From NCBI GenBank assembly GCA_040901445.1, contig JBBDYQ010000001.1, positions 62,001 to 126,000 of the forward strand: a stretch of 64,000 nucleotides of DNA, given 5' to 3'. Of this stretch, positions 13,298 to 19,182 are shown piece by piece (position 1 is the stretch's first letter; each line of letters begins with the position of its first letter). The position numbers and the translations under genes were made by a program. The notes under the pieces were generated by a model. That model searched no databases, was not told the DNA's origin, and saw only the letters and a program-made list of their open reading frames with translations. Origin of the DNA: Thermoleophilaceae bacterium (GTDB taxonomy: Bacteria; Actinomycetota; Thermoleophilia; Solirubrobacterales; Thermoleophilaceae).

Positions 13298-13480
13298 CTA
13301 GTCCTGCTCGGGCATCGCGTGGCGGTCGCCGTCGCCGTACTCGTCGGCCAGCCAGTCCTTCAGCTTGTCGGCCACTCCGCTCAGGTCATCCACGCGTGCG
13401 CATTCGCCGCTCCGGAGGTTCTCCACCAGCACCGTGCCGGACTCCTGCATCCGCAGTACGAATGTGCGCCGTTCGGTCAT
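13298..13480 (-). CDS. Small protein of unknown function, predicted SARP target
   Basis: A 60-residue acidic protein (begins MTERRTFVLRMQESGTVLVE) that looks like a small beta-strand unit followed by an amphipathic helix (LSGVADKLKDWLADEYG). No family was recognised, but the codon pattern and promoter support a real gene: TACCGT lies 10 nt before the ATG and, 9 nt further upstream, two TGTGAGC repeats 11 bp apart. The SARP-type regulator gene ends inside that repeat site, so the regulator is read towards this gene. An interaction or signalling role is possible but nothing in the sequence shows it. Confidence 0.6.
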   Translation of the reverse strand: MTERRTFVLRMQESGTVLVENLRSGECARVDDLSGVADKLKDWLADEYGDGDRHAMPEQD

Positions 13481-13490
13481 CGTGGGAGAG

Positions 13491-13523
13491 ACGGTACGCG
13501 GCGGCGCTCACAGGCCGCTCACA
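13491..13523 (-). promoter_or_regulatory. Direct-repeat SARP-type site and -10 upstream of the small gene
   Basis: Minus strand: TGTGAGC (13523-13517), 4 nt, TGTGAGC (13512-13506), 9 nt, TACCGT (13496-13491). The 11-bp repeat period and the close spacing to the -10 match sites bound by SARP regulators. The same arrangement recurs at 19150-19182. The site overlaps the stop codon of the SARP-type gene. Confidence 0.7.
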
Positions 13524-16500
13524 CAGGCTCGCCCGCCAGGATCCGGCGCTGGAGCTCCGACGTCTCCTCCGACGGCTCGATTCCGAGCCCGTCCACCAGG
13601 CGGCGGCGGCACTCCAGGTACTGGCGCAGCGCGTGACTGCGGCGCCCCGCGCGGGCGTATGCGGTCATGAGGCTCCGGTGGCCGCCCTCGTCGAGCGGGT
13701 CGAGCTCGACCAGCTTGCGCGCCGCCTGCGTGGCCGCCGGCTCGTCGCCAGCCGCGCGGTGGGTGTCGGCGAGCCCGGCGAGCAGCTCGGCACGTCGCTC
13801 TGCGAGCCGTTCCCGCCAGGCGACCGCCCAGTCCGAGTATCGCTCCTCGGGCAGCGGCTCGCCGCTCCACAGTCGCTCGGCCGCGTCAAGCAGCGTAAGC
13901 CGCTCCGGCCCCGTCTCACTCAGCGCCGCCGCCGCAGCGGCCTCGAACTCGTCGGCGTCCACGACGTCGCGCTCGCTCAGGCTCAGGCGGTAGGTGCGCT
14001 CCGCGAACTCGATCGCGCTGCGCTCCGCGCCGGGGGCATCCAGCACGGCCCGGGCGCACGACACGGCGACCTGGAGCGCACGGCGCGCGGCGGGTGGCTC
14101 CTTGTCCGGCCACAGCGCCTCGAGCAGGAGATCCTCGGTGACGGCCCGATCGCGGTGCAGGAGCAGGAAGCGCACCACCCGCTGAGCCGTTCGCCGCACC
14201 CAGGCCGCGTCGTCGACCGGCCAGGTGCCGCGCCGCAGCTCGAACGACCCCAGGAGCGTGAAGACGAGCGGAGGCGGCGTGCGTGCGACCTGCGCCTCGG
14301 CCGCGCGGGCCGCGGCGGCGACGCCGGCGTCGGGATCCCCCGTCAGCTCGGCCAGCCGCTCTATCCCCTCCGGATGCCCGGAGGCCGCCGCCGGGCCCAC
14401 CGCGGCGCGCCGGACGGCGGCGGAAGGGTGGCGAGTGAACGGGAGCAATGCCGCGCCTCCCGGCCACCCTCCCTCGATCGCCATCACGACCTCCCCCGCG
14501 TCCAGCGGCGCCGAGGAGGCCTCATCTCCCGGCTCGAGCGCGGCCCACAGCAGCGGCTCGAGCCGCGGCCATTCGCGTCGCACGAGATGGGCCCGGTTCT
14601 CTCCCGCCTCCTCCCAGAAGCGCGCGAGGTCACGCCGGGAGCCGGCCTCGTCTCCCTCGCCGCGCACCAGCCAGGCACGCTGCGCGAGCAGGCGCGCGCG
14701 CCCGTACCTGCCGGCCGCGCCCGGGTAGCGCTCGTCGACGAGCGCCAGCGCCTCGTCGACCAGGGCACGTGCGGTGACGCCGGCGCCGACCTCGGCGAGC
14801 ACGGGGGCCAGGTCGGTGGTCGCCCAATAGCGATCTACGACGGGAGCCCGTGACACGCGGACCAGCGCCCGATCGACCGCGGCCGTCGCCTCCCCCGCAT
14901 CCCCCCGCAGCGCCGCCACGGCGGCTCGCGCGGCATCCACCTTCCACTCGCGCCAGCCGGCGCCGGCGGCACCGCGGTCCGCGCGAGCGAGCTCGGCCTC
15001 GGCGTCGGAGAGCCGTCCCGCTCGGGCATGGGTGTAGGCCGGATACGAGTGGGCGAAACGCGCCACCCATGCACCGAGCCCGCTGCGATCCGCGACCGCC
15101 GCGGCACGCCCCCACCAGTCGATTGCCTCGTCATCGTAGCCCTGCTCGCCGAACAGCAGGGCCACGGCCCCCATCACGTAGGCGAGCCGGTTGAGGGGAT
15201 CGGCGCGCTCCAGCTCGGCGACCGCCTCGAGCGCGCGCCGGAGCACGTCGTCGATCCGCCCTGTCGGCGTGTCCAGGTAGGCGACGACCAGCAGCTCCAG
15301 CGGCGCCAGGCCTGCCGCGGCCGGCTGCGCGAGGGCGCGCCGCGAGAGCTCCCGCCCGCGTTCGGCCTCCCCGCGCATTGCGAGTGCCATCGCGGCCAGC
15401 AGCGCCACGGCGGGCGCCGCCGCGAAGGCCGGCTGGGCCTCCGGCGCGTCGAACCCCTCGGCGAGGCCCGCGACCTCCTCGAATTCCCCGACGGACACAA
15501 GCGCGTCAGCGAGCGCGAGCCGTGCGAGCCACTTCCGCGCGGCGTCGCTGCCGCCCAGGCCGTCGGCCGCGGCGCGCAGCGACTCCACTGCGGACTCGTG
15601 GCGCCCCGCGGCCAGCTCGAGCTGTCCCTCGAGCAGGCGCGCGCCGGGCTCGGCCCGGACCTCGGGAGGCATCCGCTCGAGCCAGGGCCGCACCGACTCC
15701 GGTGCCGTCCGCATCAGGAGCTGGCCCTCGGCCCCGATCGCGGCGACCGCGTCGGAGAAGCGCTCCGCCTCGACGAGATGCTCGATCGCCTCGTCGACCC
15801 TCCCCGCCGCGGCCAGGGCCGGCGCCACGCGCGCGTGGAGCTCGCGCCGGCGCTCGGCCGGACGCTCCTCCGCCAGCCGGCCCAGGAGGAAGTCGCGAAA
15901 GAGCGGGTGGTAGGCGAAGCGCGTCCGATTGGGGTCGAGCGCCCGCAGGAACAGGCCCTGGCGCTCGACGCGCTCCGCGAAGCCCTCGGGCAGCTCGAGC
16001 GCCTCCGCCGTCGCCTTGTCGAGCTGCTCGGGGACGCTCGAGTCGATCAGCGCCCGGCGCGCCGGCTCGTCGAGACGATCGACCACCTCCTCCGCGAGGA
16101 AGGCGAACAGGCTGGTGCGCGACCCCGGATCGAGCTGCGCCCCGCCCTCGCTCAGCGCGCTCAGCGCGATTCCGAGCGGCCATCCCTCGGTGGCCGCCAT
16201 GACCGCCTCGACCTCGTCCGCCGAGGGCTCGCGCCCGCGCCTCGCGCTCAGCAGCTCGGCGCACTCCGCCGGGCTGAAGGCCAGCTCGGCGGCGCCGAGC
16301 GAGTCCAAGCGCCCGGTCGCCCGCAGCTTCGCCACCTGGAGCTCGAGCGGGCGACGCGCCGCCACGGCGATCCGCAGCTCGGGCGCGGCGAGCAGGTCGG
16401 AGACGAGCGGAGCAGCCGCGGGGGCGCCGGCCAGGTGCTCGGCGTCGTCGAGCACGATGGTGAGCGGGTCGACCAGCAGGCGTCCCAGCTCACCGACGAG

Positions 16501-16839
16501 CTCGCGCCCGGCACCGGGAACGTCGACGGGCTCCAGGCCCGCGACGATGCTCTCGCCGAGGACGTCCACCGCGCCCGGGACCGTCCGGCGCAGGGCCGCG
16601 AGCAGGCACAGGAGCAGCCGGCCGGGATCGCGCTCGGCCTCGGTGAGCGAGATCCACGCGGCGCCCTGATCCCTGGCGTCGAGAGCCTCCTGCAGCGCCA
16701 TGGTCTTCCCGTAGCCCGCGCCTGCCACGAGCAGCAGCGATCCCGCGTCGAGCGCCGAGGAGAGTCGCGCCGCGAGCGCCGGCCGGGCGATGCGGGCGGG
16801 GCCGGGCACAGCGAGGGCTCGAGGCGGTGGCGCCGTCAC
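13519..16839 (-). CDS. SARP/BTAD-domain transcriptional regulator with N-terminal STAND-type ATPase
   Basis: A protein of about 1106 residues. The N-terminal third is a MalT-like ATPase: Walker A AGAGYGKT at about 39-46 and a Walker B-like LTIVLDDAEHL. A long helical TPR/HEAT-like middle follows. At about 860-950 is an OmpR/SARP winged helix (LGSFELRRGTWP, then VVRFLLLHRDRAVTEDLLLE), and the C-terminus is a bacterial transcriptional activator domain ending in YLECRRRLVDGLGIEPSEET. Such proteins are ligand- or ATP-gated activators. The frame is open to a TTG at 16878; the GTG at 16839 is preferred because TACGGT lies 10 nt upstream. Two matching direct-repeat sites flank the locus. Confidence 0.85.
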   Translation of the reverse strand: MTAPPPRALAVPGPARIARPALAARLSSALDAGSLLLVAGAGYGKTMALQEALDARDQGAAWISLTEAERDPGRLLLCLLAALRRTVPGAVDVLGESIVAGLEPVDVPGAGRELVGELGRLLVDPLTIVLDDAEHLAGAPAAAPLVSDLLAAPELRIAVAARRPLELQVAKLRATGRLDSLGAAELAFSPAECAELLSARRGREPSADEVEAVMAATEGWPLGIALSALSEGGAQLDPGSRTSLFAFLAEEVVDRLDEPARRALIDSSVPEQLDKATAEALELPEGFAERVERQGLFLRALDPNRTRFAYHPLFRDFLLGRLAEERPAERRRELHARVAPALAAAGRVDEAIEHLVEAERFSDAVAAIGAEGQLLMRTAPESVRPWLERMPPEVRAEPGARLLEGQLELAAGRHESAVESLRAAADGLGGSDAARKWLARLALADALVSVGEFEEVAGLAEGFDAPEAQPAFAAAPAVALLAAMALAMRGEAERGRELSRRALAQPAAAGLAPLELLVVAYLDTPTGRIDDVLRRALEAVAELERADPLNRLAYVMGAVALLFGEQGYDDEAIDWWGRAAAVADRSGLGAWVARFAHSYPAYTHARAGRLSDAEAELARADRGAAGAGWREWKVDAARAAVAALRGDAGEATAAVDRALVRVSRAPVVDRYWATTDLAPVLAEVGAGVTARALVDEALALVDERYPGAAGRYGRARLLAQRAWLVRGEGDEAGSRRDLARFWEEAGENRAHLVRREWPRLEPLLWAALEPGDEASSAPLDAGEVVMAIEGGWPGGAALLPFTRHPSAAVRRAAVGPAAASGHPEGIERLAELTGDPDAGVAAAARAAEAQVARTPPPLVFTLLGSFELRRGTWPVDDAAWVRRTAQRVVRFLLLHRDRAVTEDLLLEALWPDKEPPAARRALQVAVSCARAVLDAPGAERSAIEFAERTYRLSLSERDVVDADEFEAAAAAALSETGPERLTLLDAAERLWSGEPLPEERYSDWAVAWRERLAERRAELLAGLADTHRAAGDEPAATQAARKLVELDPLDEGGHRSLMTAYARAGRRSHALRQYLECRRRLVDGLGIEPSEETSELQRRILAGEPV

Positions 16840-16926
16840 CGTGGAGGCCACCGTAGTCCACCCCGGAAGGGGCCGCAATACCCCTCCGGGCCAGCCCGCC
16901 GGGCGGGACGAAGGGGCCGGCTTCGG

Positions 16927-19143
16927 CTAGCGGCGCCGCGAGGGCCTGCGGGTGATCCGCAGGGTCGCTCGGTCGGTCGCGACCTGGCCGTCGGCTCCCC
17001 GCACCGTCAGGGTCACCGAATAGCGACCGGGGGCAGGCGGGCGCCGGCGGACCCGGCGCGGGCCGCGCGTTCGCCGGCCGTTCCAGCGCAGCGCGTTGCG
17101 CCCCTCCCGCGCCCGCCCGCGCAGCACGGCGATCGCCGTCCGCCCGCGGCGGATCGTCAGCGTCGCCCGTCCCGCCCCGGTGGCCAGGTAGCGCATCCGG
17201 ACGCGCGAGCGCTGGCGGGCGCTCGGCCGCTCGTCCACCAGCGCCACCAGCAGCCTGATCGCCGGCTCGCCGGGCGCGCCCACGGCGCCCGAGGGACCGG
17301 TCGGACCTGCGGGCCCGGACGGCCCGCCCGGACCGCTCGGCCCCGTCGCGCCGGACGTGCCCTGCTGCCCGGGCGCCGGTACGTGCACCGCGTTGCTCGC
17401 GGCGCCCGTCGAGCCGCCGGCGTTGGTGGCGGTCACCAGGCAGTCGATCGCCTGGCCCACGTCGGCCTGCTGCACGGTGTGGTTCGTGCCGGTCGCTCCG
17501 CCGATCGCCGCGCCGTTGCGCCGCCACTGGCGGGCGAACGCGAGCGGGGCGGGATCGTCGCTGGTCCAGGCGCCCGTGGAGCAGGACAGCGCCTGGCCGG
17601 CCAGCGCGGAGCCCGTGACCTGCGGTGCGGCGGTGTTGGCGGGGACCGCCACCTCGCCGACCCGCCGCACGAAGGTCTCGAACTCATTGGGAGCGAGGCC
17701 GGGCTGGTCGTCGTCGCCATAGAAGACGGCCATGTGCTCGTCACTCTGGGGGCTGTAGGCGACAGACGGCTGGAACGCGTCGGACTCCGGATCGCCTATC
17801 CCGCCCGCCGTGGAGATCGGGAAGTCGCTCGGCCCCACCTCGAGCCCGGCCGAGTCGAGGCGCTGGCCGAGCGCCTCGAACTCCCCTTGGATGCGCCCGC
17901 CCTCGTTGTCGTCGCCCAGGAAGGTGACGAGGTACTCGTCCGCCTGGCTGTCGTAAGCGACGTCCGCGGTGTTGGCGCCGAACGCCGCAGTGCCGTTGGC
18001 GCCGCCCACGTCGGAGATCTGGAAGTCGTTGGCGCCCACCTCCGCCCCCGCCCCGCCGAGGCGCTGGCCGAAGATCTCGACCTCGCCGTCGACCAGGCCG
18101 TTCTCGCTGTCGTCGCCGTTCCAGGCGACCAGGTACTCGTCGCGCTGCGGGTTGTGGTCGACCGCGGCACTGAAGAAGTCGCGACTGGGATCGGCGCCGT
18201 TGGCACCCCCGGCGTCCGAGATCTGGAAGTCGTTGGCGCCCACCTGCGCCCCCGCTCCGTCGAGGCGCTGGCCGAAGATCTCGAACTCGCCGTCGATCAG
18301 GCCGTTCTCGCTGTCCTCGCCATGAAAGGCGACCAGGTACTCGTCGCGCTGCGCGTTGTAGGCGACGTCCGGCGAGCCCGCTCCGAACGCAACGTCGCCG
18401 TTGGCGCCGCCCATGTCCGAGATCTGGAAGTCGTTGGCGCCCACCTGCGCCCCCGCTCCGTCGAGGCGCTGGCCGAAGATCTCGAACTCGTTCTGTACCA
18501 GGCCGCCCTCGTTGTCGTCCCCGGGCCAGACCACCAGGTACTCGTCGCGCTGGGCGTTGTAGGCCACCGCAGGCGCGCTGGCGCCGAAGGCCGTGCTGGC
18601 GCCGTTGGCGCCGCCCATGTCGGAGACCTGGAGGTCGTTGGGGCCCACCTGCGCCCCGGTCGCCGTAAGGCGCTGGGCGAAGACCTCGTCCTCGTTGTCG
18701 ACCAGGCCGTTCTCGTTGTCCTCTCCGTTCCAGACCACCAGATACTCGTTGCGCTGGGCGTTGTAGGCGACGGCCGGCCCGGACGCACCGACGTCGATGT
18801 TCGTGTTGGAGCCGTTGGGCCCGCCGACGTCGGAAACCTGGATGCGCGGCCCGATCCGGTCGCCGCCGGCCGAGACACGCTGGGCGAAGACCTCCTCCTC
18901 GTTGTCGACGAGGCCGCCGCTGTCGTCGTCGCCGCGCCAGGCAACGAGGTACTCGTTTCGCTCCGGGTTGTGGGCGATGGCGGGGTTGGAGCCGCGGAAC
19001 GCCGTGCTGCCGTCCGGCCCCATGAACGAGACACGCTGCTGCTCGGGTCCGAGCGGGGTCGGGTCGGCGCCGGCGCCGGCGACCGGCAGGAGGGTTGCGA
19101 GCACAGCGGTGACGGCGGCGAGAGCGAGGCGGGATCTGGACAT
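16927..19143 (-). CDS. Secreted repeat protein, predicted seven-bladed beta-propeller with Ig-like and collagen-like parts
   Basis: A 738-residue exported protein. Residues 1-27 are a signal peptide (hydrophobic core LAAVTAVLATLL, cleavage near AGAGA-DP). Residues 63-500 contain seven tandem units of 66-69 residues starting near 63, 132, 200, 267, 335, 402 and 468, each with D/N-EYLV…G-D/E-D…GL…E-x-E-x-F…QR and ending GGxNG. Residues about 505-590 form an Ig-like domain, 592-626 a collagen-like Gly-x-x stretch, and 630-738 a basic beta-rich domain. Seven units suggest a closed propeller. The promoter carries the same direct-repeat site as the small gene at 13480, with TAGCTT 6 nt before the ATG. 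No enzyme motif is visible; surface binding or adhesion is a guess. Confidence 0.8.
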   Translation of the reverse strand: MSRSRLALAAVTAVLATLLPVAGAGADPTPLGPEQQRVSFMGPDGSTAFRGSNPAIAHNPERNEYLVAWRGDDDSGGLVDNEEEVFAQRVSAGGDRIGPRIQVSDVGGPNGSNTNIDVGASGPAVAYNAQRNEYLVVWNGEDNENGLVDNEDEVFAQRLTATGAQVGPNDLQVSDMGGANGASTAFGASAPAVAYNAQRDEYLVVWPGDDNEGGLVQNEFEIFGQRLDGAGAQVGANDFQISDMGGANGDVAFGAGSPDVAYNAQRDEYLVAFHGEDSENGLIDGEFEIFGQRLDGAGAQVGANDFQISDAGGANGADPSRDFFSAAVDHNPQRDEYLVAWNGDDSENGLVDGEVEIFGQRLGGAGAEVGANDFQISDVGGANGTAAFGANTADVAYDSQADEYLVTFLGDDNEGGRIQGEFEALGQRLDSAGLEVGPSDFPISTAGGIGDPESDAFQPSVAYSPQSDEHMAVFYGDDDQPGLAPNEFETFVRRVGEVAVPANTAAPQVTGSALAGQALSCSTGAWTSDDPAPLAFARQWRRNGAAIGGATGTNHTVQQADVGQAIDCLVTATNAGGSTGAASNAVHVPAPGQQGTSGATGPSGPGGPSGPAGPTGPSGAVGAPGEPAIRLLVALVDERPSARQRSRVRMRYLATGAGRATLTIRRGRTAIAVLRGRAREGRNALRWNGRRTRGPRRVRRRPPAPGRYSVTLTVRGADGQVATDRATLRITRRPSRRR
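17644..18957 (-). repeat. Seven tandem repeats of about 200 bp inside the secreted propeller gene
   Basis: The repeats are obvious in DNA as well as protein: blocks coding for GAGAQVGANDFQISD recur nearly unchanged in units 3 and 4 and with small changes in unit 5, while units 1, 6 and 7 have drifted. This gradient indicates recent internal duplication in the middle of the array. Confidence 0.9.
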
Positions 19144-19149
19144 GCCGCC

Positions 19150-19182
19150 AAGCTAGGCGGCGCCGCTCACAGCCCGCTCACA
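19150..19182 (-). promoter_or_regulatory. Direct-repeat SARP-type site and -10 upstream of the propeller gene
   Basis: Minus strand: TGTGAGC (19182-19176), 4 nt, TGTGAGC (19171-19165), 9 nt, TAGCTT (19155-19150), then 6 nt to the ATG. Repeat sequence, 11-bp period and 9-nt distance are identical to the site at 13491-13523, although the surrounding bases differ. Confidence 0.7.

Follow-up and report, generated by a model that had tools for sequence, protein, structure and literature searches.

Heptamer direct repeats as probable operators of a SARP regulator with reversed domain order in a Thermoleophilaceae bacterium

SARPs are known mainly as activators of antibiotic gene clusters in Streptomyces, and a search of the literature found no account of SARPs in Thermoleophilia. 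The locus described here comes from a Thermoleophilaceae bacterium (contig JBBDYQ010000001.1, positions 62,001 to 126,000; this stretch of 64,000 nucleotides is referred to below as the window), and its hosts are poorly studied, mostly uncultured soil actinobacteria. The gene for a large SARP lies between two copies of the direct repeat TGTGAGC-N4-TGTGAGC, and the question is whether these repeats are the operators of the regulator encoded between them. The repeats are a real conserved promoter element and, judging from sequence comparison, very probably serve this SARP as its operator. That the regulator would use them to activate the genes for a small protein and an exported protein is considered likely, and a SARP of reversed domain order appears to control exported surface proteins together with a small protein.

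The regulator and the repeats that flank it

The regulator is encoded on the minus strand at 13519–16878. It is at most 1119 residues long, since the start codon is uncertain and a GTG near 16839 is plausible. A predicted STAND ATPase is followed by repeats and by C-terminal DNA-binding and BTAD domains. The BTAD domain was matched in Pfam at residues 973–1114 (E = 1.4e-24), and Trans_reg_C was matched at residues 897–957 with an E-value of 1.1e-5, slightly short of the curated cutoff. The NCBIfam matches were to MalT (3e-40, residues 29–372) and AfsR (1.7e-18), and the PDB sequence matches were to EmbR (2fez, the best) and AfsR. The sequences GAGYGKT and LTIVLDDAE are predicted to be the Walker motifs of a NACHT-like ATPase. 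The sequence-only reading had placed a SARP/BTAD regulator between the two repeats, and the BTAD, Trans_reg_C, and MalT/STAND matches support this assignment. The C terminus has the arrangement that defines the SARP family, an OmpR-type winged helix followed by BTAD, and on these predicted domains the protein is a large SARP in which the domain order of AfsR is reversed.

The window contains two exact matches to TGTGAGC-N4-TGTGAGC-N9-TANNNT, both on the minus strand. The first predicted operator (repeats at 19165–19182) reads TGTGAGC-GGGC-TGTGAGC-GGCGCCGCC-TAGCTT and lies upstream of the gene for an exported propeller protein, between the stop codon of an aldehyde dehydrogenase gene and the propeller start. 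Its presumed –10 element, TAGCTT (19150–19155, minus strand), follows the inner repeat by 9 nt and precedes the propeller ATG by 6 nt. The second predicted operator (repeats at 13506–13523) reads TGTGAGC-GGCC-TGTGAGC-GCCGCCGCG-TACCGT and precedes the gene for a small protein; its presumed –10 element is TACCGT (13491–13496, minus strand), also 9 nt from the inner repeat. Both –10 assignments rest on the sequence and on a geometry common to all seven sites described below. The outer repeat of the second operator includes the stop codon of the SARP gene (GTG TGA GC), where CCTGTGTGAGC encodes Pro-Val-stop, and only the inner half is intergenic. Both sites had been proposed to be intergenic, which is correct for the propeller site but not for this one. 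The proposed 11-bp period and the 9 nt to TANNNT were read directly at both sites and correspond to the geometry of SARP operators.

The two copies were also said to be the only ones in the window, and the claim holds on a larger scale: across the genome (3.54 Mb, 25 contigs) there are two exact copies of the repeat, both of them the window sites that flank the SARP gene. The expectation by chance was estimated from 200 dinucleotide-preserving shuffles of the window in which any exact heptamer repeat with the 11-bp period, N9, and TANNNT was counted. The mean was 0.025 per shuffled window and the maximum in any shuffle was 1, against 2 observed, and both observed sites carry the same heptamer. 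Matches to the heptamers elsewhere in the genome with one or two mismatches (L003–L013) are attributed to chance; they are mostly intragenic, and none of those inspected has a –10 element at nine bases.

In published SARP operators, the direct repeats recur every 11 bp and the 3′ repeat is 8 bp from the –10 element; two SARP protomers bind side by side, overlap the –35 region, and contact region 4 of the sigma factor (PMC10936776). The heptamers bound by PimR are separated by 4-nt spacers (PMC5930380). The sites found here agree with this geometry within one base (9 versus 8).

The presumed –10 elements end 6–10 nt ahead of the start codons of the two window genes, and the mRNAs from both promoters would be leaderless or nearly so. 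Leaderless genes occur in actinobacteria, and the short distance from –10 to start fits them. No consensus sigma-70 promoter (a –35/–10 pair) and no intrinsic terminator were found between 13200 and 19300, which fits an activator-dependent promoter and cotranscription of the propeller and SARP genes. The propeller stop (16927) and the SARP gene that follows it are 48 bp apart, and the two genes probably form one operon, an arrangement that would imply autoregulation. A separate SARP promoter is nevertheless possible, as the sequence TACGGT lies just upstream of the possible GTG start.

Recurrence of the site at related regulator genes

A second copy of the SARP, 49% identical to the first, is encoded on contig 25 of the same genome. 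Its stop codon lies inside the sequence TGTGAGG-ATTC-CGTGAGC-N9-TAGCTT (L026), and the gene that follows encodes a 69-residue homologue of the small protein from the window. Among 31 genomes of the family, close orthologues of the SARP were found only in G014 and G022 (51% identity), the latter a metagenome-assembled genome of a Thermoleophilaceae bacterium. In both, the 3′ end of the SARP gene carries TGTGAGC-N4-CGTGAGC-N9-TA[GA]GTT (L044 and L045), again ahead of a small gene. The site at the junction of the SARP and small genes is thus present in all four close SARP loci, at the same place as in the window. A small regulon had been predicted; the conserved junction agrees with this, but the second SARP copy with a like site would make the regulon wider than the locus.

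The pattern YGTGAGN5YGTGAGCN9TANNNT was built from the SARP-locus sites themselves. With no mismatch allowed it matched five times among the 31 genomes, each time in one of the three that carry the SARP, and these are the same sites that defined it; it was absent from the 28 genomes that lack a close SARP. Because the five matched sites defined the pattern, the informative part of this search is its absence from the 28 genomes together with two new sites found at one mismatch. These lie outside the set used to build the pattern and read TGTGAGG-ATT[TC]-GGTGAGC-N9-TAGCTT in G014 and G022, upstream of orthologous genes for exported proteins of the beta-helix type. The heptamers of the two sites are identical and the spacer bases differ. 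The total is seven sites in three species, all with a period of 11 and 9 nt to TANNNT.

A motif search had been suggested for this and related genomes. The genome itself holds the window pair only, and zero-mismatch matches in the family occur only where the SARP occurs. Exact copies of the repeat are also found in five other genomes of the order (L021–L025, with the flanking sequence read); the copy inspected, in G027, falls where a reading frame ends, and no SARP is encoded there. Matches with two mismatches in SARP-less genomes of the family were about as frequent as those of a reversed-pattern control. A two-mismatch pair in G014 and G022 (CATG..ATGTGAGC..TAGGAT) is associated with another gene and is left out of the count.

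A scan of about 25 SARP loci that made no assumption about the heptamer returned only these sites, a GCTAAGA/C pair at another SARP, and one probable chance match. The GCTAAGA/C pair is at L046 3049–3082 and L047 3790–3823, both on the minus strand, where the other SARP gene ends in GCTAAGA-N4-GCTAAGC-N9-TAG[CG]TT ahead of a gene that starts MVGDASLQELEESLRGELIRPSDPRYDEA. The probable chance match is at position 399 of the window (minus strand), reads CGACCCA-GGCT-CGACTCA-N9-TACCCT, and precedes a PolX-like gene (MKNAEIALHFDELADLYELDG); about 0.6 such matches are expected per window by chance with one mismatch.

Several observations weigh against the repeats being operators of this SARP. Seven sites in three species are few. 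A whole-genome pattern search, confined to the eight f2 genomes with distant SARP orthologues, found no site with up to one mismatch, and neither a TGTGAG-type site nor a generic repeat promoter was found at the orthologues from these genomes and from the Acidimicrobiales genome ANT-92. The nearest relative of the propeller in the six genomes searched (from G014) is without a site. The second SARP copy could be the true binder of some of the sites. Finally, the outer repeat of the 3′-end site overlaps the conserved terminal Val-stop codons of the SARP gene, and its conservation could be partly coding. Absence of the repeat from orthologous loci that keep the SARP had been named in advance as evidence against an operator; it is seen in the distant orthologues, whose recognition helices also differ, but not in the four close loci.

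The recognition helix, known systems, and competing explanations

In an alignment of the regulators, all four site-bearing SARPs have the recognition helix AARRxLQVAVS[CS]AR, which was seen only in site-bearing loci. The aligned SARPs of another Thermoleophilia family have variants that end in VSRAR or ISRAR, with neither a site nor a small gene at the end of the SARP gene. In AfsR, T88 and R92 make contacts with bases (PMC10936776). In our own alignment, R92 falls at the Cys/Ser position of the site-bearing SARPs. The four site-bearing SARPs group together in a small tree, where support for including the window copy is weak (0.41). These comparisons, which concern one clade, are consistent with an operator and a recognition helix that change together, and this apparent covariation offers a handle on the evolution of SARP specificity.

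The closest known system is AfsR–AfsS of Streptomyces coelicolor, in which the afsS gene adjoins afsR. Like the system predicted here, it has a large SARP with ATPase and repeat domains, a target protein of about 60 residues, and a pair of direct repeats, 11 bp in period, that closely precede a –10 element without a good –35 element. AfsR activates afsS, which encodes a 63-residue sigma-like protein with three 12-residue repeats (PMC6988585, PMC2267785). The differences are in the regulator, in which the SARP domain is C-terminal (ATPase 29–372, SARP 897–1114), whereas in AfsR it is N-terminal and followed by NOD and TPR domains; in the heptamer, which is TGTGAGC, and the Cys/Ser at the position aligned with R92; in the predicted targets, which are exported proteins rather than antibiotic regulators; and in the small protein, which lacks the three 12-residue repeats, is predicted to fold as beta-beta-beta-alpha, and resembles AfsS at most by position. 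The sequence-only reading knew of no description of such a system. AfsR and afsS are a close precedent, although the domain order and the surface targets differ, and the present system is a variant of the AfsR-type circuit, not a new kind of system. The regulator and the small protein offer a defined pair for the analysis of an AfsR–AfsS-like circuit outside antibiotic control.

Other regulators share parts of this architecture. The SARP-LAL proteins PimR, PteR, SanG, and PolR also combine a SARP with a large LuxR-type region that binds ATP and resembles MalT, and they recognize heptamers with 4-nt spacers. In PimR, however, the SARP domain is N-terminal, the protein binds CGGCAAG and controls polyene biosynthesis, and the main operator consists of three repeats without overlap with the –35 region. 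MalT, a STAND activator of Escherichia coli, has a similar N-terminal ATPase/sensor region but a LuxR-type helix-turn-helix output instead of a SARP domain. EmbR of Mycobacterium tuberculosis has the SARP-type DNA-binding and BTAD domains but differs in having an FHA domain and in lacking the ATPase region.

The circuit to which the sequence, geometry, conservation, and gene association point would operate as follows. The N-terminal MalT/STAND ATPase would keep the regulator inactive until a signal comes; the sequence-only reading had likewise proposed gating by ATP or a ligand. Two SARP domains would then bind side by side on two heptamers one helical turn apart, take the place of the –35 element, and bring RNA polymerase to a promoter that has only a –10 element and would be weak on its own. 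The genes for the putatively HicB-like protein of 60 residues and for the exported propeller would be activated in this way, and the propeller transcript would probably read through into the SARP gene and give positive autoregulation. The small protein would most likely act in the cytoplasm, where it would be a partner of the regulator or the exported products or would modulate them by feedback.

The repeat might instead be the operator of a different regulator, for instance the second SARP copy on contig 25 or an OmpR/PhoP-type response regulator, with the window SARP a mere neighbor. The second copy has the same recognition helix and an almost identical site, regulators of the OmpR/PhoP type use similar direct repeats with an 11-bp period, and at afsS the boxes for PhoP and AfsR overlap (PMC6988585). 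However, zero-mismatch sites in the family were found only in genomes with this type of SARP and mostly touch the SARP gene itself, and SARPs of other subfamilies that neighbor the small-protein family keep the geometry with other heptamers. We regard this explanation as unlikely.

A slightly less probable alternative is that the sites do belong to the SARP but serve repression or feedback, and that the small protein antagonizes the regulator and is not an effector. The small gene is positioned like a feedback component beside the SARP gene in most loci, and the small protein has a weak match to the HicB-like fold, which is frequent in antitoxin and repressor proteins. The arrangement of the promoters argues the other way: no sigma-70-type –35/–10 pair was found at these genes, and repeats in place of a –35 element, directly upstream of the –10, are the geometry of SARP activation (PMC10936776). 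The explanation of the 3′-end site by coding and stop-codon constraint together with recent duplication of the locus, the propeller copy being a chance match, draws on the Val-stop overlap and on the common descent of the four SARP loci, but is very improbable because the inner repeat, the N9 spacing, and the –10 element lie in intergenic DNA and are retained although the bases between them vary, because a GTG TGA ending is seen in none of the eight distant Thermoleophilia orthologues, and because the propeller and beta-helix sites lie in nonhomologous DNA, with the low chance expectation given above.

The small protein and its exported partners

The small protein (60 residues; 13298–13480, minus strand) gave no family match above the cutoff in Pfam or NCBIfam. 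Its AlphaFold2 model is a beta-beta-beta-alpha fold with a mean predicted local distance difference test (pLDDT) score of 81. The best Foldseek match in the PDB was 2yzt, a HicB-like protein, with a probability of 0.99 and a template modeling score of 0.67 but an E-value of 0.3. With this reserve, the model suggests a HicB-like protein of the HicB/UPF0150 type. Profile searches found true homologues at the four close loci, once in G009, twice in G026, and once in G483, which is of another lineage; an additional homologue is present in ANT-92 (L133), reached via its SARP. Profile matches in G088, G400, G449, and other genomes were rejected as fragments, mostly within long frames. A gene for a BTAD regulator adjoins the small gene in eight of nine loci, the exception being that on contig 174 of G026.

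In G009 and on contig 138 of G026, the neighboring regulator belongs to another subfamily with an N-terminal SARP domain and is divergently transcribed. The small gene there has the promoter GTTTGCC/GTTTACC-N4-GTTTGCC-N9-GATGCT, and in G483 it has the weaker GATCAGT-N4-GATGAGC-N9-TAGGAG. No such repeat promoter was found at L133, where the small gene appears to come after a gene for a surface protein with immunoglobulin-like (Ig) repeats.

The exported propeller protein (738 residues; 16927–19143, minus strand) is predicted to have a signal peptide, about seven propeller repeats of 68 residues (204 nt in the gene), an Ig-like domain, a short collagen-like stretch with a weak match to Pfam Collagen, and a C-terminal beta domain. 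Its AlphaFold2 model has a moderate pLDDT of 68, and the top fold matches in the PDB are beta-propellers. The propeller had been proposed as part of the regulon, but it is not a fixed partner: the presumed exported target is a propeller, collagen-like proteins, or a beta-helix protein depending on the species. Co-occurrence of the three genes in relatives had been suggested as a check; the SARP gene is found with the small gene in G014, G022, and the second copy, but the propeller is not conserved.

What recurs is a regulator, a small protein, and an exported protein that varies. At the second SARP copy, the small gene is followed by genes for two related proteins with collagen-like stretches. 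The extra presumed targets of G014 and G022, of the beta-helix type, are encoded elsewhere in the genome than the SARP locus (L100 473–1975 and L101 1654–3162, both on the minus strand). They are exported proteins of about 500 residues with choice-of-anchor Q and Ig domains, under a TGTGAG-type promoter and beside succinyl-CoA ligase-like genes in the two species. Genes for exported proteins come after the small gene in G009 and G026; in G483, a very large protein with LamG-like and TSP3-type domains (start uncertain) is encoded divergently from it; and the Ig-repeat protein of L133 has a C-terminal membrane segment. It is conceivable, though we hold it only tentatively, that these loci represent a jointly inherited module of actinobacteria that comprises a large SARP, a HicB-like small protein as dedicated circuit partner, and at least one exported surface protein of highly variable kind. 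In such a module the heptamer would change in step with the recognition helix, and the 11-bp period and the 9-nt spacing would remain constant. It would extend over Thermoleophilia at least and, judging from two loci, would include an Acidimicrobiales-like lineage.

Three further observations concern the small gene. Upstream of the copy near 8150 on contig 51 of G009 (L165) there are possibly three tandem heptamers, GGTTGGC-CCCC-GTTTGCC-GGGC-GTTTGCC, which recall the three-heptamer operator of PimR. The homologue on contig 174 of G026 (L167, 704–1090, plus strand) has TACGTT shortly before its ATG and no SARP gene in the 8 kb of sequence covered. At the two Acidimicrobiales-like loci (L162 7519–7698, plus strand; L133 10028–10216, minus strand), the small gene and the SARP gene overlap at their tails, whereas the two genes are arranged head to tail in the window.

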